DNA of 64,000 nt from Croceivirga sp. (GTDB lineage: Bacteria > Bacteroidota > Bacteroidia > Flavobacteriales > Flavobacteriaceae). Below, piece after piece: positions 7,113 through 27,185 of the stretch (its first letter is position 1; each line of letters opens with the position of its first letter). Where the stretch lies: the NCBI GenBank assembly GCA_028281025.1, contig JANQKR010000017.1, positions 1 to 64,000 of the forward strand. The letters run 5' to 3'. The position numbers were made by a program, and so were the translations under genes. Below the pieces are notes generated by a model. The model had not been told where the DNA came from. It did not search any database and was given only the letters and a program-made list of their open reading frames with translations.

Positions 7113-7313
7113 ATCAAAAGTGCTTTAGGTTTTGATTGTTTTTGATACTCGAAAAGTACTTTGGTAGCTATTTAAAACAGTTGATTTTCAGGTTTTTGTA
7201 GATAAAATAAAATCTGGTTTTAGATAGTTCCTATTGATGCGGATTAGGTTTAAAAAATATTTTGAACTAGAAAGTCTATGTTAATAAATCATTCTTTTCA
7301 ACGGTGTTAAGCT

Positions 7314-10300
7314 TCATTCACTCTCAATTAAATCCAATTCAGCTTCATATTCATATTCTTCTTTGAATACTTTGTTTACAGAGTAGGTTACTTTTATTTC
7401 TTGTTCATTTTTAGGAAAACTAATGGCATAGCCAATAATTGGTTTATCAAATGGGGAATTTTCCCAACCATTGGGTTTTGGATTAAGAGGATATATTAAT
7501 AGTAATCCATTTTTAATACCTCTAGACTTTCTAATATTTTTCCCTGAAGGAAATTCAGGTGGAGTTTCACTTTTATTGGTTCTCTCACTTAGGTTCCAGT
7601 CATAAATAGTATCTTCAAGTGCTCTAGTGTAAATAGCACTATCTTCTGGTATATCTACAAATTCATGCCTTGGATCAATTATATGACTTTTGGCCATAAT
7701 GTAGTACTTACCCTTTCCATTTTCTATGTCTGTACGCATAGTTAGGCCAATTGAGATAGGTGTCCCGTCTATTTTAAAATGATTATCAGTAGCATTTCTT
7801 TTTGTTGAAACCAAACAAATTGACCAATCTCTTAAGGCATTATTAGATACTTGCTTTTCAATATACTCGACGATTTTCTCATTTTCTATGGGATTGTCTT
7901 CACGGCTAAATCCTTTTAAGAAGTTGATTACTTGGTTGTAATTATCCTCAGATTGCCATACATATGGTTGATATTCATTATCTACAGGTTGACCTAAATT
8001 ATTGATGAAGTCAACTGTGTGGTTGTAGTTTTTTTCAATAATACTTTTATCTCTAACAAAACGAGAGGTTTCTCTAAGCTTGTCTGAAAAACTCAAGACC
8101 ATTTCGTGACTATATCGAAACTTATTGGTTGCTGTAATTTGAAGGACATCAGGATGTTGTCTTACCTTTAATCCAAATTCCTTGGGAGATTTTCTCAAAT
8201 TATTCATCTCTTCAAAATCTTCTCTTAATTCATCAGATGCAATAGTGATAAATCGATACCATTGTTTAAGTTCTTTACTTGTAAAAATCCTACATAGGTC
8301 GATGTAACCAGGTCGATAACCGAACCAACGTCCCATCTGCATCAATGTATCATACATTTTAGATGCACGCAGATAATAACTTACGGTAAGGCCTTCTAGC
8401 GTAAGCCCTCTAGATAACTTATTTCCTCCAACTGCAATTACAGAGAGACCTTGATTTCTATTATCATAATAATCCAGAGGAGTGATATTTTTATATTTGA
8501 GTGCAGCTTCATTTTTATTGCCATGTACGGCTCTAACTTCAATTTTTGAGGCAGCTTTGTGAACTTGAGATTCTATTTCATACCACTCATGATGTCTAAT
8601 AAAAGGATCATCATAACGTTCATCATCAATAATTGAATTTGTGGTTGGAACATATTCTGTATTCCATATTTTTTTTAGTTCAGCGAATATGCTTCCTTCT
8701 TTGAATTCTATTTGTCTTTTGTAAGATTTTAGTTCTTCGTAAATCAAGTATGCTATTTTATCCTGCCACCTAACAAATCTGGTAACATGCACTAACATCG
8801 AATTATGTTTGGTGAAATGTCCTCTAGTTCTTCGTATGGCACAGGACAGTATGAAGCATTTGATTGCATATTTCAGGGTGTCTGGCAGGTACTCTGGTAG
8901 ATCATCCCAATGTTTGTGTTTGTCGGGTATGGAAATGTCGTAATCATCTATATCAATTACAATTGGTAGTGGTTGGTATACTTCTTCCATATCCTCAACA
9001 AGATTGGCATCTATCCCAAAAACTTGTCTTGGACCTATATAGTTTGAAGGAGGGGGTATATTTATTATAAAATCTCGAGGAAATAAATCTTCTCCCGACC
9101 GCTTAAAAAAATCTGATTGATTTACATTAACTCCAGGCTCAATTGACTGAAAATTGTCTGGAACAGGTATAAAAATATTAGCGAATGGTGTAGCGGTATA
9201 ACCTACATAGCCACTTTTTTGAAATATTGATAATAGGGAACGGATTAATCCATTTATAGTGGACACATTATCCTTACTTACATTGATTGACGCATTATCG
9301 GCTTCATCATCAATAACCAATGCTGCATATCTTATTATTTTTTTATTATTACCAATTGATTCTCCCGAGGAGGCTAATTGTCGAATAAGCTTTTCCAATA
9401 CTGACTTATTCTTCTTGATTACAAAAACGAAAGGGCCCGAACCATCTATGGGTACAGGGCTTCTTTGGAAATCCCCATCCAAATCACTTGATGTGAGTGG
9501 GGTAGGGACTAGGCTTGAGTCATAATTCCCAACCCCCCATTTATTAGAAGCAACGAGTCTTCTTTCAACTTGAGTGTCAAACCCAAGGAACCCTTTGTCT
9601 ATCCTAAATTGGGTTTGAGCACGTAAGTCGTTGTACATTCCAGTAAGCACAATAATTATTTTATAACCAGTATCCGCTGCTTTGTTTATTAAAGCCAGAT
9701 AATTACTGGTTTTTCCAGACTGTACATGACCAACCACCATTCCCCTTTTATCCCAAGATCCTTCTTCCAATGGATTCTTCAAATGATCTAGCAAATCATC
9801 CGTAATTTCATCAATTTTATCTATGGTATCTGGGGCATATTGTTCCTCTTTTTGCAAATATTGCTTGTACCTGTTCCAATATTTCCAGTTCTGTTTGGCT
9901 GATTTATCGATCCATGGAGAATATCCCTCATCCAGAATAGTATATGGGTCGGATTCAATGGTATATTGTTGCTCAATAAACTTTCTGATATGAAGTTCAT
10001 TGATGTCTTGTTTTGTGAAGGCAAGCATAGCTCTGTTGAATGCGCTATCGATATCTGTTTGATCGATAGGGATTTTTTTGCCTTTCAACAATGTGATTAT
10101 AAATTCAGTAAACTTTTCATTCTCCAATTTAATCCTGTCAACCTCAACTTTAAGTTCTTTTAGCTCTATCGCTATTTCATTTGGTGGATTCCCTTCCAAG
10201 GCATATTCATAGAGCTTTTGTGCTTCTACATAATCTGCATTATCCAAAGCCAGATGTCCAGCACTTCTAAATAGTACAGAACGGGTTGGTTCAATTTGTT

Positions 10301-10457
10301 CGCTAAAAAGCTCTATGGCCGCCTGCTTTTCATACTCCATGGCTTTTCTAGAAAATTCTTCAAACTTTTCCAAATCTTCATTCCTTTTTGCGAGAATTGC
10401 CATTTCCGCAAAGTCCATTGCAAGTTTGTGTCGTTTTTCTATATACTGTTTTTTCAT
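7314..10457 (-). CDS. Z1-domain SF2 helicase-type ATPase of a restriction-like system
   Basis: A 1047-residue protein with an N-terminal helical region (about residues 1-120), then a superfamily-2 ATPase core: Walker A GHVQSGKTSN (about residue 247), Walker B DDEADN (about residue 384), and an arginine-finger motif in MQMGRWFGYRPGY (about residue 709). The stretch LSRGLTLEGLTVSYYLRAS is typical of the Z1 domain (PF10593). Such proteins occur in operons with C5 methyltransferases, MORC-type GHKL ATPases and PD-(D/E)XK nucleases, described computationally by Iyer, Abhiman and Aravind (2008). It is the last gene of the leftward five-gene operon, and its start overlaps the preceding stop by four bases. 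It probably moves or remodels DNA for the nuclease; this is inferred. The gene is clearly A+T-richer than the flanking tra genes. Confidence 0.88.
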   Translation of the reverse strand: MKKQYIEKRHKLAMDFAEMAILAKRNEDLEKFEEFSRKAMEYEKQAAIELFSEQIEPTRSVLFRSAGHLALDNADYVEAQKLYEYALEGNPPNEIAIELKELKVEVDRIKLENEKFTEFIITLLKGKKIPIDQTDIDSAFNRAMLAFTKQDINELHIRKFIEQQYTIESDPYTILDEGYSPWIDKSAKQNWKYWNRYKQYLQKEEQYAPDTIDKIDEITDDLLDHLKNPLEEGSWDKRGMVVGHVQSGKTSNYLALINKAADTGYKIIIVLTGMYNDLRAQTQFRIDKGFLGFDTQVERRLVASNKWGVGNYDSSLVPTPLTSSDLDGDFQRSPVPIDGSGPFVFVIKKNKSVLEKLIRQLASSGESIGNNKKIIRYAALVIDDEADNASINVSKDNVSTINGLIRSLLSIFQKSGYVGYTATPFANIFIPVPDNFQSIEPGVNVNQSDFFKRSGEDLFPRDFIINIPPPSNYIGPRQVFGIDANLVEDMEEVYQPLPIVIDIDDYDISIPDKHKHWDDLPEYLPDTLKYAIKCFILSCAIRRTRGHFTKHNSMLVHVTRFVRWQDKIAYLIYEELKSYKRQIEFKEGSIFAELKKIWNTEYVPTTNSIIDDERYDDPFIRHHEWYEIESQVHKAASKIEVRAVHGNKNEAALKYKNITPLDYYDNRNQGLSVIAVGGNKLSRGLTLEGLTVSYYLRASKMYDTLMQMGRWFGYRPGYIDLCRIFTSKELKQWYRFITIASDELREDFEEMNNLRKSPKEFGLKVRQHPDVLQITATNKFRYSHEMVLSFSDKLRETSRFVRDKSIIEKNYNHTVDFINNLGQPVDNEYQPYVWQSEDNYNQVINFLKGFSREDNPIENEKIVEYIEKQVSNNALRDWSICLVSTKRNATDNHFKIDGTPISIGLTMRTDIENGKGKYYIMAKSHIIDPRHEFVDIPEDSAIYTRALEDTIYDWNLSERTNKSETPPEFPSGKNIRKSRGIKNGLLLIYPLNPKPNGWENSPFDKPIIGYAISFPKNEQEIKVTYSVNKVFKEEYEYEAELDLIESE

Positions 10458-10978
10458 CTTTCAGCAGTTAACATCATAGGTTGCGCAAACCCCACAACAA
10501 CGATTATCGCAGGTAGTTTTGTGGAATCGGATTGTTTGGTTTGTTCAATCTTTATTTTTAGCCGCTTGACCAATTCGCCTTCATCCCCGTTCAATGAACC
10601 AGATACTTCTAGCCTTGCTTTCCGTTGAAAAAGAAAACTATCATTATCTCCTAACCAGTAGTCTATTCCAGTTCCTTTTCGTGAACGTTCAATTACTTGA
10701 TATTTCGATTCCTTGGCGACTTGAACTAATGCAACGCCACATGCACCTTCTTCAGTTGCTTCCTGCATGTCATTCCATGTTCTCTTTATTTCATCTGTTA
10801 CATCACATCTTTTAAGAGTATAATGTCTCGAATACACTCCTTTACCAGTAGCATGGGCAGTTATTGCATGACCTCTATCATTGATGCACACTGCAGCTGC
10901 ATGGGACAAACTTGCGCCCATAGCGGGGGTTAAATTATGGTGTTTTCCAAGCTCAAGCTCTGTTAGGTCTAAAATCAT
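10454..10978 (-). CDS. Unknown 174-residue protein of the MORC/Z1 island
   Basis: I do not recognise a named family with certainty. The protein is soluble, with a central region EEGACGVALVQVAKESKYQV, then GTGIDYWLG (about residue 102) and KARLEVSG (about residue 120), and a beta-rich end PAIIVVVGFAQPMM. An aspartate followed after a short gap by a strand with E-x-S could be a degenerate PD-(D/E)XK arrangement, but the canonical lysine is missing, so this is speculation. It lies between the Mrr-type nuclease gene (4-base gap) and the Z1 gene (4-base overlap), so it is an obligate member of this operon in translation terms. Confidence 0.75.
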   Translation of the reverse strand: MILDLTELELGKHHNLTPAMGASLSHAAAVCINDRGHAITAHATGKGVYSRHYTLKRCDVTDEIKRTWNDMQEATEEGACGVALVQVAKESKYQVIERSRKGTGIDYWLGDNDSFLFQRKARLEVSGSLNGDEGELVKRLKIKIEQTKQSDSTKLPAIIVVVGFAQPMMLTAER

Positions 10979-10982
10979 TACC

Positions 10983-12581
10983 TCAGTTAAAATGTCTTTG
11001 TTTAATATTCTTATATCTCGCTAGGATTCGCTCCAATTCATAAACTGAAAATTCTTGGGTTTCTATGTCTTTTCTTGCGGAAATCCTATCCAATTTGTCA
11101 TATAGTGTTGCATCAATTACAACAGAGGTCATTATTCCGTATCCTTGAGCATCATACTGCTCTATGGTATCCGAAATGTCAATTACTTTTGTAGCGGTAA
11201 GAGAACTTCCTGGCTTCAAATATTTGCATTGAAAAATATATTTCTCAGATTGATAACCCGGTCGCGGGTGTGTGTTAACAACAATATCTCTTCCTCCATC
11301 TCTTGATTTTGATTTCCCCATTTTTCTAATTGTACTATTATCAAATTTTGGATTATGGTAAATAATGTCATAACAGAGCTTCTCAAATTTTTCATCATCT
11401 AATTGTTCCCAAGGACATTTAATTTCAACATGAATACCCGCAAGATTAGCCGTAGTACGAAAAAGAACAGAAAGTCTATCGCCAAGTGAAATAAGTTCCA
11501 TATGATTTAGTTTATCCGTATCAAAAAAAAGATAAGAGCACTTTTCATCTCTGACAAGAATATGATCACCATATTCAGATAGATAAAAACAGACTACAAG
11601 AGGAGGTCGAAAAATATTTTTATTCTCGGTTGTTAATTCTAACAACTCCTCGCTGCGGTCTGTAGGATAGCCTTTGTAATTTTCCTTAGATGATTTTAAC
11701 TGAGAATACCGTCTATTGAAAGTAAGAAATTCGTGAACCCACGTTTCATATCCCCATCCGCCAAAATTGTCTTTTTGTATGTTATGCGCACACCGTTTGG
11801 CATGGATAAACGACCCGAATGGAAAATGAATAATCATTCCATCGGATATAATATAACTAATGTTGCCCAAAACGAAAAAATCAGCTTTGACAAATTTAAG
11901 ATTGCTAACACCAGCGTATTCTTCTACAATCCGGGATAGGTTGTATGAATTTGGAATAATCCAACCTTCCCTAGAGCAAAAAAAATCATTTCCTATGTTC
12001 TTACTGAAAGCGCTTTTCCAATATCCAAACCGCTGCTCTGGATATTTTTGATAGATTTCCTCAAAATACTTGGATTCAATAACTTCATCGTCGTCGTTCA
12101 AGTCTCCATCATATGTTTCATGGGCTAATTCGTAATAAGCGCCATAAATCAAGTTTGCATAATAATCATCTACTAATTCTGGATAGGTGAACGTCTTGCT
12201 ATCCAACTCTTGCTCAAACAAGTCCACCTTACTTATAAAATCTAGTCTACAATCATCATCTTCTCCCGCAAATCCTTCGCTAAGGAAAATCATCTGGTTT
12301 ATCATCTCCTGAATTTTTATAGGCTTCAAAGAGATTTCTACTACAGGATAATAAAATAGATTAGGATTTATTTTTAAATCAACCCTATCTGAGTATTTTG
12401 AAAGAGTTTCCGCAATATAAGAAGCCTCTATATAATCAATGATTATATTGATATACGAGTTGGTGCTATTAATTGAATGCAGGGGTATTTGAATAGTGAC
12501 ATTCTTATTTTCAAAGAGTATTTGAGAAATAACTTCTTTATTTTCCTTGAAGATTTTGTCTATGTCAATGATGGCAGACAC
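10983..12581 (-). CDS. Mrr-type restriction endonuclease domain protein
   Basis: A 532-residue protein whose last ~120 residues form an Mrr-like PD-(D/E)XK nuclease: FEKLCYDIIY, then GKSKSRDGGRDIVV (about residue 425) and the catalytic strand YIFQCKYLKPG (Q-x-K, about residue 451). The large N-terminal part (residues 1-390) has no family I can name and may be the target-recognition or regulatory region. The GTG start at 12581 overlaps the TAG of the GHKL ATPase gene by one base; no closer ATG gives a better start. It is the likely DNA-cutting subunit of the island and would be opposed by the methyltransferase encoded two genes upstream. Confidence 0.85.
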   Translation of the reverse strand: MSAIIDIDKIFKENKEVISQILFENKNVTIQIPLHSINSTNSYINIIIDYIEASYIAETLSKYSDRVDLKINPNLFYYPVVEISLKPIKIQEMINQMIFLSEGFAGEDDDCRLDFISKVDLFEQELDSKTFTYPELVDDYYANLIYGAYYELAHETYDGDLNDDDEVIESKYFEEIYQKYPEQRFGYWKSAFSKNIGNDFFCSREGWIIPNSYNLSRIVEEYAGVSNLKFVKADFFVLGNISYIISDGMIIHFPFGSFIHAKRCAHNIQKDNFGGWGYETWVHEFLTFNRRYSQLKSSKENYKGYPTDRSEELLELTTENKNIFRPPLVVCFYLSEYGDHILVRDEKCSYLFFDTDKLNHMELISLGDRLSVLFRTTANLAGIHVEIKCPWEQLDDEKFEKLCYDIIYHNPKFDNSTIRKMGKSKSRDGGRDIVVNTHPRPGYQSEKYIFQCKYLKPGSSLTATKVIDISDTIEQYDAQGYGIMTSVVIDATLYDKLDRISARKDIETQEFSVYELERILARYKNIKQRHFN

Positions 12582-14059
12582 TATATGTTCTCGATTAGTT
12601 CTGGATAATGTGCAAAAGGGTCTGTTCTTAATATTTCTTCTACCGCCTCGTCCCTTGTTTTTCCTTCGGCGATAAAACTTTCATATAATTCGATTACCAT
12701 TTTAACCATATCCGAACTGGCTTTTCCTTCAAAAGGCGTTGTTTGGAAGTCATTGTTTTCAGTTTCATTAGAAACAATCAATGGAAGTGGGACAGTTTCC
12801 TCGATAAGTCGGAGCAGTCTATTTAGTTTTGCTTTGCTGCTAGGATACCTCGAAAGAAAGTTGGCAATAATCGGATGTGAACGGTTTATTTGGTAAAATC
12901 TTCTCCCCTTACTTTTTTTATCTGTCCATACAAGGACTTTATTTTTCGAATTGCTTTTTTGTCGCCTTTCACCAATTTGTCGATATACTTCTACGGCTTC
13001 TTTTCTTGTCTTGTCTGCAATTTCTTTTAACTGTGTTTTGATCTCTGGTGGAGGAGTGGCTACAGATTTTTTTATGTCAAGTTGCCATATATTGTCAATG
13101 TCAACGGTGTTCGGGATATTAACAAATATTCTGGCAAGTTTGTAGTGTTCTTCTTGTTTATACATGCCTAACCAGTCGCCGGCAAGCAAAAGACGATTAT
13201 TTCTGTAGATATAGAAACCCTGATGAGAATTCCATCCTTTTACTCCAGAGGCATTTTCAAAAACCTGTCTATTTATTTTTGAATGTAGCGGTAATACATA
13301 AGGTACAACTTCGATAATATCATTAATAATTGCTTTTGCAATGACTTTTGTAGCCTTCTCGGTTTTTAGATAAGGGTCCCACGGAGCTATTTTTCTATTT
13401 TTTATCCAAACAGTAAGTTTTTGGTTTTCCATATACTGATGAAAAACCATACTCAGATGCTTTTTTAGGGATTCAATTCTTTCTAGGAATTGATTCATTG
13501 CTTTTTCGGGACTTTCACCACTTTTATCAATAATCCGGTCTAAATCCTTCCAAATTATAGAGGTCCCAGTCGTTAATTTTTTTAACCTTGCAATAAGACT
13601 TTGATCCGACAGATATTTTAAAATTCTCCATTTGTTTACCGCTGTAACATAATTTAGGTCCCAACACCGATATATGATTTTGTTTAATTCTTTTGACTTG
13701 GTTGCTACAGTTAGATTCCTACATTGAGAGAAAGAAGCCGTTTTTAGTCCCAGTCCGAATCTTCCAAGGTCCTCTTGACTCCTATCCAACAACGGGTTTT
13801 TCGATCCTGGCCTCATAGCCTTTACCAGTTCTTTTTCCTTCATTCCTCTTCCATCATCTGTGATAACCAAAGAAGTGTTTTCTTCTTTCCAAGCAAAGTC
13901 AATCCAAACATTTTTGGCACCTGCCGCTATACTATTATCAATAATATCAGCTACAGCTGTAGATAGATTATAACCGATTGAACGGAAACTTTCTATCATT
14001 GCCCTAGCATAAGGAGAAGCATCCTCTCCTTCATATTGTTTAAGTTGCTCTAAATTCAT
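12581..14059 (-). CDS. MORC-like GHKL ATPase
   Basis: A 492-residue protein with an N-terminal GHKL ATP-binding fold: N-box-like DIIDNSIAAGAKNVWIDF (about residue 38), the DDGRGM motif (about residue 73), and GRFGLGLKTASFSQC (about residue 102) for the ATP lid. This order matches MORC/MutL-type ATPases of prokaryotic restriction clusters, which are expected to dimerise on ATP binding and clamp DNA. A C-terminal S5-like half precedes an acidic tail. The start overlaps the end of the methyltransferase gene by 20 bases and the stop overlaps the next start, so expression is coupled. Confidence 0.88.
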   Translation of the reverse strand: MNLEQLKQYEGEDASPYARAMIESFRSIGYNLSTAVADIIDNSIAAGAKNVWIDFAWKEENTSLVITDDGRGMKEKELVKAMRPGSKNPLLDRSQEDLGRFGLGLKTASFSQCRNLTVATKSKELNKIIYRCWDLNYVTAVNKWRILKYLSDQSLIARLKKLTTGTSIIWKDLDRIIDKSGESPEKAMNQFLERIESLKKHLSMVFHQYMENQKLTVWIKNRKIAPWDPYLKTEKATKVIAKAIINDIIEVVPYVLPLHSKINRQVFENASGVKGWNSHQGFYIYRNNRLLLAGDWLGMYKQEEHYKLARIFVNIPNTVDIDNIWQLDIKKSVATPPPEIKTQLKEIADKTRKEAVEVYRQIGERRQKSNSKNKVLVWTDKKSKGRRFYQINRSHPIIANFLSRYPSSKAKLNRLLRLIEETVPLPLIVSNETENNDFQTTPFEGKASSDMVKMVIELYESFIAEGKTRDEAVEEILRTDPFAHYPELIENI

Positions 14060-15662
14060 CTAGTTGAATTTCAGGTTCTTCCTCTTGTCCTTGTTCTCGA
14101 ATTTGATTGAATACATCATGAACTATTGTAGCTATATTGTTTGCCAGTAATGGTGGAACTGCATTTCCGACCTGGATAAATTGTGCAGTCCGCGGACCAC
14201 AGAAAAAGTAATTGTCTGGAAAGGTTTGAACGCGTGCCGCCTCACGTACCGTTAAACTTCTGCACTGTGTTGGGTCTGGGTGAATATAATAATGCCCGTC
14301 TTTTGAGATGTGGCTTGTAATTGTTTTGCTGGGTTTACTAATAAGCTGCACCCTAAAACGATCTGCAAATTTCTTCTTGTCAATTCCCTCTTGAACATTT
14401 TTATGATTAGGTAATAGTAATTCTGGGAAATCTTCGAGTTTAGGAGACCTCATATTAACTCTGGCAAAACATGAAGCAAAAAAATACCTATGCAAATCAC
14501 TTTCCATGTGTCCTCTTGATTGATGATTGCATACCCCACCAATCCTATTGTCAATAAACCAATCTGGACTGTATTCCGAATTGACGTTTCTATATTTAAT
14601 GTAGTTTAATCCAATTCCTTTTTGCGGGAGTCTTAATCTATTTAATTGCCGCGTGATTTCAACCACAACCGTGTCTTCAATTTGACTTAATAATGTTGAA
14701 TCGGTAATTCCCATAATTACATTAAGCCAATTTTCATTTATATTTTTAATTTTTGAAAGGCCACTTCTAAGCCTTGGCAAGCCAGTAAGCACTCTCGATA
14801 TTGGTATTTCATCCTCTGGTTGGAGAATATTTGGTGTAATCTCATAATGCTTTCTTATTCCAAGAAGAATAACTCTATGTCTAGTTTGGGGAATACCAAA
14901 ATCTTCTGATTTTATTACATAATCTTTATGCTTGTTAACCGGATTACCTTGGATATCATAAGACATCGGCATTGAGGTCAAAGAAAAAATATGGTAACCA
15001 GGACAAGTAAGTTCTCCATCGGCTTCACCATAGTCCAACTGGTAGGCCGCTACTGGATTTTTCAGGTCTTCAAGAATACGTGCAAAAACTGGACTATCTT
15101 CAGTCTCAGCTGACAATAAACCTTTAACATTTTCCATAATGAAAATAGACGGATTGTGAACTGCCAAGATTCTCAAATATTGTTTGTAAAGCTCAACTCT
15201 CTCATCTTTTTCACCATCTAGAATTGTTTCTTGACGCCTAGATCTCCCCACTACAGAATACGCTTGGCAAGGTGGCCCTCCAAGAAGCAACCAGTCCTCT
15301 TCACCCTGTAACGCCTCTGTTATTCGAATATCCACATCTTCCGGAAGAACGGAGTTTTCCCCATCACCTAGTTCAGCAAGCCAAGCATCATTTTTTGCCT
15401 TTTGTGCCTGTACTGGCCACCTTTCATACAATTCGTCAAGGGTAATTTCGCCTCTAAGCAATCTGTAATAATCACTTGGAGCATCACCTAAATCGAATTG
15501 ACGATAAAAACTTCTTAAAGTAAGAGTCTGGTGAGCGTAAAATTCCTTTTCTATTGATAGTGCTATTTTAAATTTTCGGGCATTATCATTGTCGACAATA
15601 CTTGTAAAACCTTCTCCCAAACCACCTGGACCAGCAAATATGTCAACTACCGGTATGGCCAT
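14040..15662 (-). CDS. DNA (cytosine-5) methyltransferase
   Basis: A 540-residue C5-methyltransferase with all main motifs: motif I VVDIFAGPGGLGEGF (residues 5-19), catalytic motif IV GGPPCQAYS (about residue 129), motif VI IMENVKG, motif VIII QTRHRVILLGIR, motif IX LTVREAARVQTFPDNY and motif X QVGNAVPPLLANN. A long region of about 130 residues between VIII and IX is the target-recognition domain, so the specificity cannot be read here. It is the first gene of the five-gene operon and presumably protects host DNA from the Mrr-type nuclease. Its A+T-rich codon use differs from the tra genes. Confidence 0.95.
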   Translation of the reverse strand: MAIPVVDIFAGPGGLGEGFTSIVDNDNARKFKIALSIEKEFYAHQTLTLRSFYRQFDLGDAPSDYYRLLRGEITLDELYERWPVQAQKAKNDAWLAELGDGENSVLPEDVDIRITEALQGEEDWLLLGGPPCQAYSVVGRSRRQETILDGEKDERVELYKQYLRILAVHNPSIFIMENVKGLLSAETEDSPVFARILEDLKNPVAAYQLDYGEADGELTCPGYHIFSLTSMPMSYDIQGNPVNKHKDYVIKSEDFGIPQTRHRVILLGIRKHYEITPNILQPEDEIPISRVLTGLPRLRSGLSKIKNINENWLNVIMGITDSTLLSQIEDTVVVEITRQLNRLRLPQKGIGLNYIKYRNVNSEYSPDWFIDNRIGGVCNHQSRGHMESDLHRYFFASCFARVNMRSPKLEDFPELLLPNHKNVQEGIDKKKFADRFRVQLISKPSKTITSHISKDGHYYIHPDPTQCRSLTVREAARVQTFPDNYFFCGPRTAQFIQVGNAVPPLLANNIATIVHDVFNQIREQGQEEEPEIQLDEFRAT

Positions 15663-15782
15663 CTACTTCTAATAATTAGTAAGATTAATATTATTTTCAA
15701 TAAGATATTTCTCACGCGAACAGTTTTAGCGTAAAATCTTAAAAATATTAATCTAAATAATGAGTTCAAAAGAAATTTGGTC

Positions 15783-18630: not shown

Positions 18631-19233
18631 ATGTCGGGTACAGCATCACATACCAGCGAATCTCTTCTGGTGGCAGAGTTGAAAAAAGGCAATGAAAAAG
18701 CCTTTATCCAACTCTATGATACCTATATAGATGTAATATATGCCTATAGCTTAAAGTTGCTCAAATCCGAGGCCTATGCGGAGGAAGTTTTACAGGATGT
18801 CTTTATGAAGGTTTGGCAGAAAAGGGAAACCCTAGATGTTTCGCGTTCCTTCAAATCCTATCTCTACACCATTGCCCGGAACAAATGTTTCGATTTTTTG
18901 CAAAAGGCCGCCAACGACAAAAAGCTTAAGGAGGCAATATTCTACCAGAGTCAAAAATCGTTTTCGGCTTCGGATTTAAAACTGATTGAATCTGACTTTG
19001 AACGTATTAAAAAAGAAGCTTACGATACCTTGCCCCCCAAACGAAGGGAAATTTTTGAACTGTCCAGACAAGAGGGATTGACCTATGATGAAATTGCGGA
19101 GCGGTTGGGCATTTCCACCAGTACGGTAAAGACCCAAATGAACAAGGCCCTGGAATCCATGCGTACCTTTTTTCACGAACATCCCGATGTTTCCTTTATG
19201 GTGGTATGCCTTATTGACAGCTTTATCCGATAA
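18631..19233 (+). CDS. FecI-type ECF sigma factor
   Basis: A 200-residue RNA polymerase sigma-70 family protein of the ECF type. Region 2 contains EEVLQDVFMKVWQKRETLD (about residues 51-69) and SFKSYLYTIARNKCFDFLQ; region 4 contains LPPKRREIFELSRQEGLTYD and EIAERLGISTSTVKTQMNKA, a clear HTH. It precedes fecR and susC, the standard order of cell-surface signalling systems, so it probably directs transcription of the downstream SusCD-type operon when its anti-sigma factor releases it. The C-terminus has an extra hydrophobic stretch (VSFMVVCLIDSFIR), as in many Bacteroidetes members. Confidence 0.93.
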   Translation: MSGTASHTSESLLVAELKKGNEKAFIQLYDTYIDVIYAYSLKLLKSEAYAEEVLQDVFMKVWQKRETLDVSRSFKSYLYTIARNKCFDFLQKAANDKKLKEAIFYQSQKSFSASDLKLIESDFERIKKEAYDTLPPKRREIFELSRQEGLTYDEIAERLGISTSTVKTQMNKALESMRTFFHEHPDVSFMVVCLIDSFIR

Positions 19234-19321
19234 CTCTTAATTAAAGGGTTTCAAAATTTTTTTAGATTTTTTTTTCTAATGGAGTAGTACTCTTTGCCAA
19301 CTCACCCGTATTAGTAAGTGT

Positions 19322-20491
19322 ATGGGTAATCACATGGAAGACAGTTCAGAAATCAAACGGCTCCTTATCAAGTTTGTGGAGGGCAATTGCACGCAACAGG
19401 AAATCGATCAAGTAGTCCGCTATTTCCAAGCGGCTAAAATGACCGAGGATTTCCCGACCACCTATGATGTATTGGAGTTAATGGACGAGCTCCCCAAGGT
19501 GGATGAAGCCGTTTCAAAACGAATCGTCCAAAACATCTTGGTAGAAGACCAAAGCAAAAAAGTGTCTAAACGTCCCGTATGGAGATACGCTTCCATTGCC
19601 GCCCTTTTCATCGGTTTAATCGGTCTGGGGATTTTCTACCAACAGGGTGGCTTTGATACTAAAAGTGATTTCGTTATTCCTGGGGATGATGTCATTACTC
19701 TGGAATTGGACAATGGGGAAATAAAGTTCATTGATGAAAATGGTTCCGAAACCATTGCCACAGCCTCCGGTCGAGTAGTGGGACAACAGGAAAAGAACAA
19801 GTTGACCTATGAAGGCATTGAGGCTACTAATGAATTGGTTTATAATACCCTGACCGTCCCCTATGGCAAACGCTTCGATATTGAACTATCCGATGGTACA
19901 ACTATATTCTTAAATGCAGGTTCCTCTATCAAATATCCTGTAAACTTTATCAAAGGATTAGAGCGTCAGGTATTCCTGACGGGGGAGGCCTATTTAGAGG
20001 TGGCTACCGACAAGGAACATCCCTTTATCGTCAATGCGGACGCACTGAATGTTCAAGTATTGGGTACCCAATTCAACGTGTCTAACTATCTGGAGGACAA
20101 TCGGGCGGAGGTAGTCTTGGTCGAAGGGTCCGTAGGAATGTATAGTGACGAAGAAATATTCGATAAAGATAAGAATGTGGTTTTGACTCCAGGATTGAAG
20201 GGAACCTTTGATGAAGCTACCACGGAGATTGAAACCAAGGAGGTGTCCACAAAGGTATATACGGCTTGGGTAAGCGGCGAGTTGGTCTTCAGGAATATGA
20301 CCTTTGATAACATCCTAAAAAAATTGGAACGCACCTATAATGTTACGATTAATAATACAAACAGGGAATTGGGCAGGAAGCCCTTCAATGCCAGTTTTAA
20401 GCAAGGGGATATCAATGAGGTATTGCAATCCTTTAAAAAATACTATGGAATCGAGTATTCCATTATCAATAATGAAGTAAACATAAACTAA
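19322..20491 (+). CDS. FecR-type anti-sigma factor
   Basis: A 389-residue single-pass inner-membrane anti-sigma factor. The cytoplasmic N-terminus is about 80 residues, the membrane segment (YASIAALFIGLIGLGIFYQQ) lies at about residues 89-108, and the periplasmic FecR domain contains TVPYGKRFDIELSDGTTIFL and GEAYLEVATDKEHPFIV. The C-terminal ~70 residues (MTFDNILKKLERTYNVTINN) form the DUF4974 domain that resembles and probably contacts the STN domain of the partner receptor. The receptor gene that follows does carry an STN domain, which fits a surface signal relayed SusC to FecR to FecI. Confidence 0.93.
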   Translation: MGNHMEDSSEIKRLLIKFVEGNCTQQEIDQVVRYFQAAKMTEDFPTTYDVLELMDELPKVDEAVSKRIVQNILVEDQSKKVSKRPVWRYASIAALFIGLIGLGIFYQQGGFDTKSDFVIPGDDVITLELDNGEIKFIDENGSETIATASGRVVGQQEKNKLTYEGIEATNELVYNTLTVPYGKRFDIELSDGTTIFLNAGSSIKYPVNFIKGLERQVFLTGEAYLEVATDKEHPFIVNADALNVQVLGTQFNVSNYLEDNRAEVVLVEGSVGMYSDEEIFDKDKNVVLTPGLKGTFDEATTEIETKEVSTKVYTAWVSGELVFRNMTFDNILKKLERTYNVTINNTNRELGRKPFNASFKQGDINEVLQSFKKYYGIEYSIINNEVNIN

Positions 20492-20557
20492 ACGAATAAA
20501 AAGTAAAACCAAAAACGCCTATGAAGAACAGGTATCAAATGAATTAAAGACACAGGA

Positions 20558-20619
20558 TAGTAGCCAAAAAAAATCGGAAAATGTTGACTCCATTTTCCGA
20601 TTACGAGAAATGGCTACTA
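20558..20619. terminator. Nested perfect inverted repeats between fecR and susC
   Basis: Inner arms 20572-20583 and 20591-20602 are perfectly complementary over 12 bases with a 7-base loop; outer arms 20558-20566 and 20611-20619 (TAGTAGCCA / TGGCTACTA) add 9 bp. A run of eight A precedes the inner stem, so on the minus strand the hairpin is followed by a T-run like an intrinsic terminator, while on the plus strand no T-run follows. It may act as attenuator, processing site or antisense terminator in the susC leader. Function is inferred from symmetry only. Confidence 0.6.
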
Positions 20620-20653
20620 AAAAACTAGTAACCAATTACAACACTATAAAAAT

Positions 20654-23600
20654 ATGAAATTACTTCGTAATGGGGTTGGAGTTTTTCCAATCCATACAAT
20701 GAAGTACATAAAAGAGATAATTTCTTCTTGGTGTACTTCAAAAAATTGCTACAAAAACAACGTCTTAAATCAAAGGGTTTCTTCAGCGTTCGGCCGAATT
20801 GAATCAGGTCTAAAGTTTGATTTAAAGATGAAGATAAGCGTGATACTATTGATTTTTGGTGCATTTGTACTTCAGGCTAAGCCTGCTTATGCCCAGAAAA
20901 AGATTTCCTTGAATTTGGAGAACGTCACCGTGGAACGATTTCTGGATGAAATTGAAAGCAAAACGGACTTCCGATTTATCTATAGTACTGATGATGTGGA
21001 TATTGACAGGCTGATTTCTCTAGTGGTAGATGAGGAACCGGTAGATATGGTTTTAGATAGGGTCTTTACAGGAACAAAAACCAACTTCAATATTGATGAT
21101 GAACAGATTTTTTTGTTGGCGAATAAAAATCCTGAACCTAAAAGTAACCAGAACTCCCTACAACAAACCCAAATCCGTATTACAGGGACCGTAACCGACG
21201 AAAATGGAATTCCCTTAAACGGAGCCTCTGTAATTGTCCGAGGAACTTCCATTGGAGTATCCACTGATTTCGATGGTCGATATGAAATTGCGGTTCCTAA
21301 TAAAGAAAGTATTCTAGTGTTTACTTATATAGGTTATGAAGATCAACAAATAACTGTAGGAGATCAATTTTCAATCAACGTAACTATGCAGGAGGCTGTA
21401 GGCCAATTGGATGAGGTAGTGGTGAGTACAGGGTATTGGCAAGAACAGCGAAAATTATCAACAGGAAACATTGGAAAGATTGACTCTAAAATTATCGAGC
21501 GCCAACCCGTATCCAACCCCTTACAGGCATTGCAAGGTCAAGTAGCGGGAGTGGAAATACAGCAAACATCTGGTATTCCAGGAAGTGCGATTAATATTCG
21601 TATACGCGGACAGAACAGCTTGAACGATGGACAGATTCTTAGAGGAAGCGATGGATCTCGCCTGGATTTACCAAATTCTAACGAGCCCTTTTATGTGGTA
21701 GATGGTGTGCCTTTTCCAGCGTCATCAATTAACACTGCAGGTTTAACCAGCTTTGGCAATAGTCCACTCGCAACTTTAAGGCCAGAAGACATTGAGAGTA
21801 TTGAGGTATTAAAAGATGCTGATGCCACGTCGATTTATGGTTCCCGAGGAGCGAACGGTGTAATCTTGATTACTACAAAGAAAGGAGAGGCTGGAAAAAC
21901 AAAGGTTACTTTGGACTATTCAATGGGTTTGGGCCAAGTACCAAATAGGGTAGACTTGTTAAATACGCAACAATATCTGATGTTAAGGAGAGAGGGAATT
22001 GTAAACGATGGAATACCATTGACCGCACAAGATTCTATAAGGCGACCAGACCTTTTCTTATGGGATCCAAATCGTGATGTAGATTGGCAGGAGACCTTAT
22101 TTGGAGGAACCGCGGAACAAACTAATGCTAGTTTTTCCATTTCTGGAGGCAGCGAACGAACCAATTATCTTTTCAGAGGAAACTATTTCCGACAAACCAA
22201 TGTCTTCAACTTTGACGATTCGTCTATAGAATCTGGTTCAGGAGTTTTTAACATGGACCATACATCAAAGGATAACAGATTTGGAATTAATTCATCCGTA
22301 ACTTATAGTCTTACCCAGAATAATCAAAATGGAGGTTTCACAGTGGATGATGCCATTACATTGCCTCCAAATGCTCCCGAACTCTTTGATGAAAATGGAG
22401 ACGTAAACTTTGAGGAAAATTTTATTGACAACCCATTGATAGAACTTGGGAGGGAATATGAAAATAGGTCTAAGAACTTAATTGCTAGTCTTTCTTTAAG
22501 GTATCAGTTATTACCTGGGCTCGTATTAAGATCGACTTTTGGCTATAATGATTTGAGTTCTGATGAACTTGGGATAATTCCGTTGAGCACTTTTTCTCCA
22601 GAGTCGGATTCGGATGGTCAGTCAAGGATTGCTAGAAATAATGTAGAAACCTGGACAATTGAACCACAATTGGATTATTCATCAAATATAGGCAAAGGAA
22701 CATTTAAGGTTTTAATCGGTGGTTCATTGCAAAGCACGAATAACAGAGGTTTGGTAATCAGAGGAAGAGGGTTCGATTCAGATCTGTTATTGAGCAATTT
22801 AGCAGCTGCTCCGGAAGTTTCAGTTCTTACGGATATCTCATCCCAATTTAGGTATACAGCTGTATTTGGAAGAATCAATTATAATTGGCAAGATAGGTAT
22901 ATTATCAATCTTACAGGACGGCGTGACGGATCAAGCCGTTTTGGGCCTGGAAATCGATTTGGAAACTTTGGAGCAGTTGGTTTAGCTTGGATTTTCTCCA
23001 ATGAAAGATTCATAGGAGATAATAGTATTATAAGTTTTGGGAAACTTCGTGGGAGCTATGGGTTGACAGGTAACGATCAAATCGGAGACTATCAGTTTCT
23101 TAGTTCCTATTCAAGTGATTCCGATGGTGGTACACTTGGATATGATGGGAATTCTGCTCTTCTTCGTTCGAGAGCTGCCAACCCTAATTTTTCGTGGGAG
23201 GAAAACCAAAAACTGGAAGTTGGTTTAGAATTAGGTTTTATAAATAATAATATTAGATTAAATACGAGTTGGTTCCAGAACAGGTCGGACAATCAGCTTG
23301 TTGGACGTCCGCTCTCCACTGTGACGGGTTTTTCAACTGTATTATTTAATTTTCCAGCTTTAGTTGAAAACCGTGGGATAGAAATCGAGTTAAGCACGGT
23401 AAATATAAATTCTAAAGATTTTACCTGGACTTCCGCTCTGAATTTTAGCAGGCTTCGAAATGAACTTTTAGAGTTTCCAAATATAGAGGATTTTTCTGCT
23501 TTCGATAATCGTTATATAGTGGGTAGATCTTTATTGGGATCTAAACAGTTTAAGACTAACGGTATCAATCCGGAGACAGGGGAAGGTAATACCGTTGATT

Positions 23601-24103
23601 TTAATGGTGATGGTAGAATCGATGTACAAGATCAACAGGATTTTGTTGAGATATTCAGAGATTTTTTTGGAGGACTCAACAACACTTTGAGGTGGAAGAG
23701 TTTGGAGTTTAGTTTTTTCTTAAATTTTGTAAAACAAAATGGTTTAGATTTTTTTCCTAATCCAGGAGGTTTTGGGAACCAACCCCAAAGGGCGTTAGAG
23801 CGTTGGCAGAGACCAGGAGATGTCACCTCTATACAACGCTCGTCAAGTAGGGGAAGCGTATTGGGCTTACAAGGAAACGCAGGTTTGACAGATGCTTCAT
23901 TCGTTCGCTTACAAAATGTGTCTCTCGCATGGACTTTACCAAGCAAAATTGTTTCTCAAATAGGACTGGAAAATGCACGTGTTTATTTAAATGGTCAAAA
24001 CCTTTTGACTATTACCGATTTTAACGGCCTTGATCCGGAAACTGGAAATACTAATCTTCCTCCATTACGAGTCATTACCACTGGAATTCAATTAACCTTC
24101 TAA
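20654..24103 (+). CDS. SusC/RagA-type TonB-linked outer-membrane receptor with STN domain
   Basis: An 1149-residue TonB-dependent transporter. After a cationic leader and a signal segment (MKISVILLIFGAFVLQAKPA, about residues 59-78) there is an STN domain (KISLNLENVTVERFLDEIES), a CarboxypepD_reg domain (GTVTDENGIPLNGASVIVRG), the plug (VNGF-type region QPVSNPLQALQGQVAGVEI, then YVVDGVPF and SIYGSRGANGVILITTKKG) and a C-terminal barrel ending in ITTGIQLTF, with a final phenylalanine. The ATG at 20654 is kept; ATGs at 20699 and 20828 are alternatives, and many family members do have the LKFDLKMK-type leader before the signal segment. With SusD it should import a bound ligand; the ligand is unknown, and no glycoside hydrolase lies nearby. 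Confidence 0.93.
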   Translation: MKLLRNGVGVFPIHTMKYIKEIISSWCTSKNCYKNNVLNQRVSSAFGRIESGLKFDLKMKISVILLIFGAFVLQAKPAYAQKKISLNLENVTVERFLDEIESKTDFRFIYSTDDVDIDRLISLVVDEEPVDMVLDRVFTGTKTNFNIDDEQIFLLANKNPEPKSNQNSLQQTQIRITGTVTDENGIPLNGASVIVRGTSIGVSTDFDGRYEIAVPNKESILVFTYIGYEDQQITVGDQFSINVTMQEAVGQLDEVVVSTGYWQEQRKLSTGNIGKIDSKIIERQPVSNPLQALQGQVAGVEIQQTSGIPGSAINIRIRGQNSLNDGQILRGSDGSRLDLPNSNEPFYVVDGVPFPASSINTAGLTSFGNSPLATLRPEDIESIEVLKDADATSIYGSRGANGVILITTKKGEAGKTKVTLDYSMGLGQVPNRVDLLNTQQYLMLRREGIVNDGIPLTAQDSIRRPDLFLWDPNRDVDWQETLFGGTAEQTNASFSISGGSERTNYLFRGNYFRQTNVFNFDDSSIESGSGVFNMDHTSKDNRFGINSSVTYSLTQNNQNGGFTVDDAITLPPNAPELFDENGDVNFEENFIDNPLIELGREYENRSKNLIASLSLRYQLLPGLVLRSTFGYNDLSSDELGIIPLSTFSPESDSDGQSRIARNNVETWTIEPQLDYSSNIGKGTFKVLIGGSLQSTNNRGLVIRGRGFDSDLLLSNLAAAPEVSVLTDISSQFRYTAVFGRINYNWQDRYIINLTGRRDGSSRFGPGNRFGNFGAVGLAWIFSNERFIGDNSIISFGKLRGSYGLTGNDQIGDYQFLSSYSSDSDGGTLGYDGNSALLRSRAANPNFSWEENQKLEVGLELGFINNNIRLNTSWFQNRSDNQLVGRPLSTVTGFSTVLFNFPALVENRGIEIELSTVNINSKDFTWTSALNFSRLRNELLEFPNIEDFSAFDNRYIVGRSLLGSKQFKTNGINPETGEGNTVDFNGDGRIDVQDQQDFVEIFRDFFGGLNNTLRWKSLEFSFFLNFVKQNGLDFFPNPGGFGNQPQRALERWQRPGDVTSIQRSSSRGSVLGLQGNAGLTDASFVRLQNVSLAWTLPSKIVSQIGLENARVYLNGQNLLTITDFNGLDPETGNTNLPPLRVITTGIQLTF

Positions 24104-24112
24104 AACATCAAA

Positions 24113-25516
24113 ATGAGAAGTTTTTTTAAGAAATCTTATACAATACTAATTGTAACACTTTTTTTCCTGATATCATGTGAAGATTTTGTGGAAATCGATC
24201 CCCCGACGAATGAAGTTGTGCAGGAAACTGTGTTTACGGTTGACGAGACTGCAATAGCAGCTATGAACGGCATATATGTATTGATGAACTCAACGGGTTC
24301 TCAATTTAGTTCTGGAATCGAAATTTTTACAGGTCTGGCTTCAGATGAACTAGTTAATTTTTTTAATAATAATGATTATCAAGACATTTCCACAAATGAA
24401 ATTCTCAGTGATAATACAATTATTTTTTCCAACTTCTGGTCAAATGGTTATCAGATTGTGAATAATGCCAATGCAGTTATAGAAGGATTGGATGGAAATA
24501 CAGATTTGACACCAGAACTAAGAAACCAATTGCTTGCCGAGGCATTATTTATAAGGGGCTATGCTCATTTTTACTTAGTTAATTTGTTCGGACCTGTACC
24601 ATATGTCACGACCACAGACGTAGAGATAAACAATAACAGCTCTAGGCTACCGGAAGTAGAGGTCTATGATATGATAATCAATGATTTACAGGAAGCAGAG
24701 ACTTTTGCTGAAGCTGCACTTATAAATGAAGAAGATGAAGATGTTACGGTAAGACCTACTTTCTGGGCAATTACGGCATTGTTGGCTAGAACCTATTTAT
24801 ATCGAAATGATTGGGCTTTGGCTGAGGAAACAGCTGCAATAATAATCGACGAGGGCCCATTTCAATTAGAATCTGATTTAAATGAGGTTTTCCGAGCAAC
24901 AAGTAGTGAAGCTATTTGGCAATTAGTTCCAAATGATGGATTTACCACACGTTTAGGTGAGTTACTTCCAATTACTTTTTTGGGGCCTGGTAATTTTAGT
25001 GCCTTTGGTGCAACGGCATTTCAACCTGGATTTTTGGAGGTATTTACCGAGGGGGATGGTCGAATTGGTGCTTGGATTGGTTCCCAAAACGAAAACAGTT
25101 TCCCAACAAAATACAAAAACTCAATCTCTCTTTCCATTGGTGAAACCGAATTTCCTGAATATACGGTCATGTTACGGTTAGCCGAACAGTATCTTATTCG
25201 TGCAGAGGCAAGGCTTCAACAGGGAAATATTTTGGCAGCACTTGACGATTTAGATATCGTTCGAAATAGGGCTGGATTGCCAAATGTAAGTTCATCTAAT
25301 CCAGCAGAAATACTTGAGCTTATTATGGAGGAACGCCAACGAGAATTGTTTGCTGAAGGAGGACATCGTTGGTTGGATTTGAAACGAACCGAAATGGCTG
25401 ATGAGGTTATAGGCTCATTAAAACCCTTATGGGATGCAACGGATATTCTTTGGCCTATACCGGAACAAGAGATTTTTAATAACTCTAATTTATTGCCACA
25501 AAATGATGGCTATTAA
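24113..25516 (+). CDS. SusD/RagB-type surface lipoprotein
   Basis: A 467-residue lipoprotein of the SusD family. The N-terminus is a lipoprotein signal ending in FFLISCEDF (lipobox cysteine at about residue 22). The TPR-like body includes EALFIRGYAHFYLVNLFGPV (SusD family signature), TFWAITALLARTYLYRNDW, and the C-terminal block MEERQRELFAEGGHRWLDLK with the final LWPIPEQE. It forms the lid of the SusC channel on the cell surface. It follows susC by 9 bases and is co-transcribed. Confidence 0.95.
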   Translation: MRSFFKKSYTILIVTLFFLISCEDFVEIDPPTNEVVQETVFTVDETAIAAMNGIYVLMNSTGSQFSSGIEIFTGLASDELVNFFNNNDYQDISTNEILSDNTIIFSNFWSNGYQIVNNANAVIEGLDGNTDLTPELRNQLLAEALFIRGYAHFYLVNLFGPVPYVTTTDVEINNNSSRLPEVEVYDMIINDLQEAETFAEAALINEEDEDVTVRPTFWAITALLARTYLYRNDWALAEETAAIIIDEGPFQLESDLNEVFRATSSEAIWQLVPNDGFTTRLGELLPITFLGPGNFSAFGATAFQPGFLEVFTEGDGRIGAWIGSQNENSFPTKYKNSISLSIGETEFPEYTVMLRLAEQYLIRAEARLQQGNILAALDDLDIVRNRAGLPNVSSSNPAEILELIMEERQRELFAEGGHRWLDLKRTEMADEVIGSLKPLWDATDILWPIPEQEIFNNSNLLPQNDGY

Positions 25517-25586
25517 TTTAATTGAGTGAATTATAATTATGCCAAGTCTTAGTACTATCTGCCTGTACAAATACAATAAAATCAGA

Positions 25587-27185
25587 ATGAAGAATCGAAG
25601 TGTTACTGCTCTTTTAACGTTTACATTACTAAGTAATTTGCTTTCAAGCCAGGAATTGAAACTTGGAGATTCAGCTCCTGAACTGAGACCTTATGAATGG
25701 ATTAAGGGAGGACCAATTGATGAATTTAAGAATGGGAAGGTATATATTGTTGAAATGGGCGCTACCTGGTGCAAGCCTTGTGCAGCTGCAATTCCGATGC
25801 TCAACGAACTTTCAAAAAAATATCAAGGTCAAGTAGAGGTCGTGAGCATATTTGTCCATGAGATTAACCGTGAACCACTTGATACTACTAATCCTGAATA
25901 TGTACAGGTAGTAAGAAAATATGTGGCTAATAGGGGAGAGCGGATGGACTACAATGTAGCTGTAGATAGCCCTAATGGAATTATTGAGCGCACTTGGATC
26001 AATGCCTTCGAAGGTGGCAGAGGAGTCCCCCAGACTTTCATTGTTGGCAAAGAAGGAAAAATAGTGGCACATTTTACCGGAATCGATCAGTCACTCGAAA
26101 TAGTTCTTAAATCAATTTTGGACGGTTCATATTCGATTCATGAGCAGCAACAAGCTAGAAAAAGACTAATGGACGAACAAAAAAAAGAGAGATACAATTA
26201 TCTAAAACCCTTATTTATTGATAATAACGGTGGTGACCAAAGTGATTTTTCGTTTAGGTCGATACTTGCAAAGTTCAAAAAAGAAGGATGGAGTGGTTGG
26301 CCTACATCATATATAAGAAGTTGGCATTCGGTAAATAGAGATTCTACAAGTGAGTTGTTTAAAGAATTTCATGTGCTTCAGGGTAGAGTGGACGCCAGAG
26401 GCTCTTCAATAGACCATTTGTATTACTTGGCTTATGCGGATACTTTAGAAAATTCTAGTGAGAGAAGAAGTTCGTTGACGCTTAAGTATCCAGATCATAA
26501 CTTAGAACCTTGGTTCAAAACATCTTATGGGGAATATTGGCCCACTCCGATTCTCGAAGTATCTGATGAAACCTTTTTTGAATATGATTTTGATTCACCA
26601 GAAAATAGATGGTCTTATGCACTTACTGTTCCAGACAAAAAGAGAGCGACTGCAGCGTATTTACAAAAATTAATGCGAGAAGACCTTAAACGATATTTTG
26701 GATATGAAGTAAGTCTGGAAACACGTGATATGCCAGTTTGGTATCTTAAAACATATCCCAGAGTCGTCAAACTAAAGACCAAGACTCCAGGGAAACTGTT
26801 TGGATGGCGTGAAGAGAGGAATGAATCTGGAGAATTAGAGAGGGTCTTCTTCAACAACAGGGATACAAGGGATTTAACAGGGATACTATCAAAACATTTT
26901 AATAGTATCGGTGTTGGTTTTAGTAAAAAGTTCAAAAACTTGGGTAGTAGGTTCGATGCACCATTTCTCGATATGACTGGCATTGACTATGAATTAGATT
27001 GTTTCATAACTCAGAAGGAGTCCAAAGGTTTAAGAGTTCAAGACTTTGAGGAAGCAAAGAAATTCCTAGACCGTTTGGGCTTTTATCTGGAAAAGGGAAC
27101 CAAGCCTATGAAGGTCGTGGTCATCCGAGACCCGAAGGACGGGATTTTGGGCCCTGCCCTTAAGGAAAACCAAAATACCCAGTAA
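25587..27185 (+). CDS. TlpA-like thioredoxin fold protein with C-terminal DUF3738-like domain
   Basis: A 532-residue exported protein. The ATG at 25587 opens a signal peptide (MKNRSVTALLTFTLLSNLLS). Residues about 20-185 are a TlpA/redoxin domain with the active site GATWCKPCAAA and the cis-proline region GVPQTFIVGKEG. The C-terminal ~250 residues end in DMTGIDYELDC ... FLDRLGFYLEKG ... MKVVVIRDP, which matches the DUF3738 (TIGR03435) pattern. It is likely a periplasmic thiol-disulfide protein supplied with electrons by the DsbD encoded two genes downstream. Base composition switches sharply from A+T-rich to G+C-rich at about 27,065, inside the DUF3738 domain, suggesting a recombination joint. 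Confidence 0.85.
   Translation: MKNRSVTALLTFTLLSNLLSSQELKLGDSAPELRPYEWIKGGPIDEFKNGKVYIVEMGATWCKPCAAAIPMLNELSKKYQGQVEVVSIFVHEINREPLDTTNPEYVQVVRKYVANRGERMDYNVAVDSPNGIIERTWINAFEGGRGVPQTFIVGKEGKIVAHFTGIDQSLEIVLKSILDGSYSIHEQQQARKRLMDEQKKERYNYLKPLFIDNNGGDQSDFSFRSILAKFKKEGWSGWPTSYIRSWHSVNRDSTSELFKEFHVLQGRVDARGSSIDHLYYLAYADTLENSSERRSSLTLKYPDHNLEPWFKTSYGEYWPTPILEVSDETFFEYDFDSPENRWSYALTVPDKKRATAAYLQKLMREDLKRYFGYEVSLETRDMPVWYLKTYPRVVKLKTKTPGKLFGWREERNESGELERVFFNNRDTRDLTGILSKHFNSIGVGFSKKFKNLGSRFDAPFLDMTGIDYELDCFITQKESKGLRVQDFEEAKKFLDRLGFYLEKGTKPMKVVVIRDPKDGILGPALKENQNTQ

Follow-up and report, generated by a model that had tools for sequence, protein, structure and literature searches.

The stretch of Croceivirga sp. 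DNA analysed here (the window: positions 1 to 64,000 of contig JANQKR010000017.1) raises the question of what kind of system is encoded by a compact block of genes at 7314-15662, within an integrative conjugative element (ICE). A sequence-only reading had described five overlapping genes at this site, and had interpreted them as a single mobile restriction machine with a role in defence. The presence of the five genes, all on the minus strand, was confirmed, while the interpretation was partly supported overall.

The first gene of the block (14040..15662) encodes a C5 cytosine DNA methyltransferase of 540 residues, an assignment borne out by Pfam DNA_methylase (E = 3.5e-41), by NCBIfam dcm (above its cut-off) and by sequence motifs. 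The adjoining gene (12581..14059) encodes a 492-residue GHKL ATPase of the MORC/MzaB type, also as originally proposed: the protein matches Pfam HATPase_c_3 (6.1e-32) and PADLOC MzaB (2.9e-107), its PDB matches are human MORC4 and MORC3, and its sequence GFYIYRNNRLL corresponds to the MORC-specific motif GhXhhpXXRhl. Elsewhere in the block, DTLMQMGRWFG corresponds to the superfamily 2 (SF2) helicase motif DThhQXuRhFG. One canonical locus (L055, 13556-18238) has three proteins between its methyltransferase and its MORC protein: a histidine kinase, a DUF3883 protein and a hypothetical protein.

The third gene (10983..12581) encodes a protein, termed Mrr532, in which a long N-terminal region precedes a predicted C-terminal Mrr-type PD-(D/E)XK nuclease domain (residues 385-532; 10983..11429). 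The earlier assignment to the Mrr type finds support in motif and fold, with a Pfam score that falls short: Mrr_cat was matched at 1.1e-3 and 19.5 bits, below the cut-off of 21, and PADLOC PDC-M58A at 1.3e-9. The motif residues GGRD (429-432) and QCK (451-453) are invariant in 6/6 rows of each of two alignments, A2 and A4, that together hold 10 different proteins. In the AlphaFold2 (AF2) model (mean predicted local distance difference test score, pLDDT, 76; predicted template modelling score, pTM, 0.60; residues 271-328 below 50), the best solved folds found by Foldseek were the modification-dependent endonucleases AspBHI (1.2e-4) and MspJI (1.2e-3), with template modelling (TM) scores of 0.16-0.19 over the whole query. 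The model thus supports a predicted Mrr/MspJI-like catalytic domain. Compared with its relative at locus L002, Mrr532 displays 87.8% identity across the C-terminal part and only 50.1% across the N-terminal region, and the corresponding ratio of -ln identity is 5.32 for this pair, whereas the remaining 14 of the 15 pairs give 1.79-2.56; from this contrast, residues 1-384 (11430..12581) are proposed to form the DNA-reading part.

The Mrr enzyme itself belongs to type IV, and the AspBHI and MspJI matches keep alive the reading that Mrr532 likewise cuts DNA containing 5-methylcytosine (5mC). Those matches, with their low TM scores over the whole chain, may nevertheless reflect the catalytic domain alone, and they are accompanied by EcoT38I, titled only a restriction endonuclease (rank 16, E 0.25). 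Ten Mrr532 loci were read (the window, L002, L034-L037 and L057-L060, with plasmid match H5 left out), and 7 of them (the window, L002, L035, L036, L037 across the record start, L058 and L060) have a C5 methyltransferase within 4 kb; at L034 the distance is approximately 11 kb, and at L057 and L059 none was seen in a search that covered only relatives of the window's methyltransferase. Such proximity counts against a type IV activity because a 5mC-cutting enzyme should avoid a methyltransferase of this kind unless the sequence contexts differ, and it sets Mrr532 apart from MspJI and AspBHI; we consider the type IV reading rather unlikely.

The fourth gene (10454..10978) encodes p174, a small PD-(D/E)XK-like protein that matched no family in Pfam, PADLOC or NCBIfam scans. 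An alignment of nine sequences displays the conserved pattern GxDYWL ... RLExSG ... RxxxKxxQ, in which D106 and E124 are invariant (9/9), ExS stands in place of ExK, and an invariant K143 lies in the next helix. Its AF2 model (pLDDT 90.5) has an alpha-beta-beta-beta-alpha-beta core, with weak Foldseek matches to restriction-endonuclease-like folds, none at E <= 1e-3. The last gene of the block occupies 7314..10457, of which the part at 10128..10457 forms a separate feature. At six other loci (L003, L004, L049, L050, L052 and L054; four on viral contigs) p174 is paired with proteins of 371-385 residues; Pfam scans of five of these (all but that of L050) gave no match above cut-off for the C-terminal part. 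On a Hymenobacter plasmid (L048, 8001-9436), the TPR-like partner runs without a break into a protein that carries a sugar-transferase annotation.

The placement of the block between traE and the element's replication genes was likewise upheld. Relatives of TraG were found in 39 of the 149 genomes of the family, the host among them, and tra genes colinear with those of the window were found in 12 stretches (L073-L084), of which 11 come from other genomes and one is a second element of the host (C24:180623); L081 gave no traE match. Between traE and the AAA/rep/xis/rteC genes, the slot (window 7113-15782) holds variable cargo: the AAA gene is reached beyond traE in 9/12 stretches, with cargo of differing size between, while L076, L077 and L079 end without it. 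A PADLOC scan of 10 cargo open reading frames (ORFs) from 8 elements matched six, from four elements: Olokun OloA/OloB (L074), a CBASS cyclase and an RmrA-like protein (L075), candidate PDC-M68B (L080) and JAB/E1-E2 (L084). One ORF each from L079, L081, L082 and L083 had no PADLOC match; Pfam identified nSTAND3 in L083, GHKL domains in L082 and a sulfatase/EptA protein, not a defence gene, in L076, and matched nothing in the L079 and L081 ORFs. The L073 slot is nearly empty (one 237-residue ORF). Judged by these matches, the slot of this ICE family carries predicted defence genes in several elements (Olokun, CBASS, nSTAND3, PDC-M68B). The host's second element (L084; G000:C24:172000-191500) is a related ICE that lies on the same contig, its slot holding an E2/E1/JAB CBASS-like protein. 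An opposite-strand ORF of 214-238 residues near traE was seen in 10 of the 12 stretches (L073, L075-L083) and not in the window.

Among the closest comparisons is MZA (mzaABCDE), which shares MzaB and MzaC (PADLOC 1e-159) with the block, both scoring below their NCBIfam equivalog cut-offs. MzaD and MzaE were not found: none of the five proteins matched Pfam DUF4420, and MzaD was absent among the PADLOC matches listed (25 of 56 for the methyltransferase); DUF4420 gave no match in the host genome, in a search whose controls also gave no match anywhere; and AIPR (MzaE) gave none in the block or host genome, with a control match in 1/14. MzaA, a sigma factor (PMC9523054), was not among the PADLOC matches listed. 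These absences, together with the sub-threshold scores, are what would be expected had an MZA-like system decayed, losing DUF4420 and AIPR, and now only hitch-hiked on the ICE, an explanation that we regard as very improbable. An extracytoplasmic function (ECF) sigma factor does lie outside the block (18631-19233), beside FecR, TonB-receptor and SusD genes; with thioredoxin-like genes, and partly of lower G+C, this region (18631-27185) is probably a nutrient-uptake block adjoining the element.

In one published account, a PD-(D/E)XK protein is counted as a core gene of every variant of the system. The paper prints this family as DUF4220, whereas in our scans the canonical loci matched DUF4420, a restriction-endonuclease (RE)-fold family that is absent from the block and matched by neither Mrr532 nor the RE-fold-like p174. 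In those parts of the published account of MORC operons that were consulted, Mrr532 and p174-TPR were not met; the same parts describe operons that have in common with the block the MORC motif, an SF2 helicase bearing DThhQXuRhFG and a cytosine methylase, and a third operon type that consistently includes another RE-fold protein.
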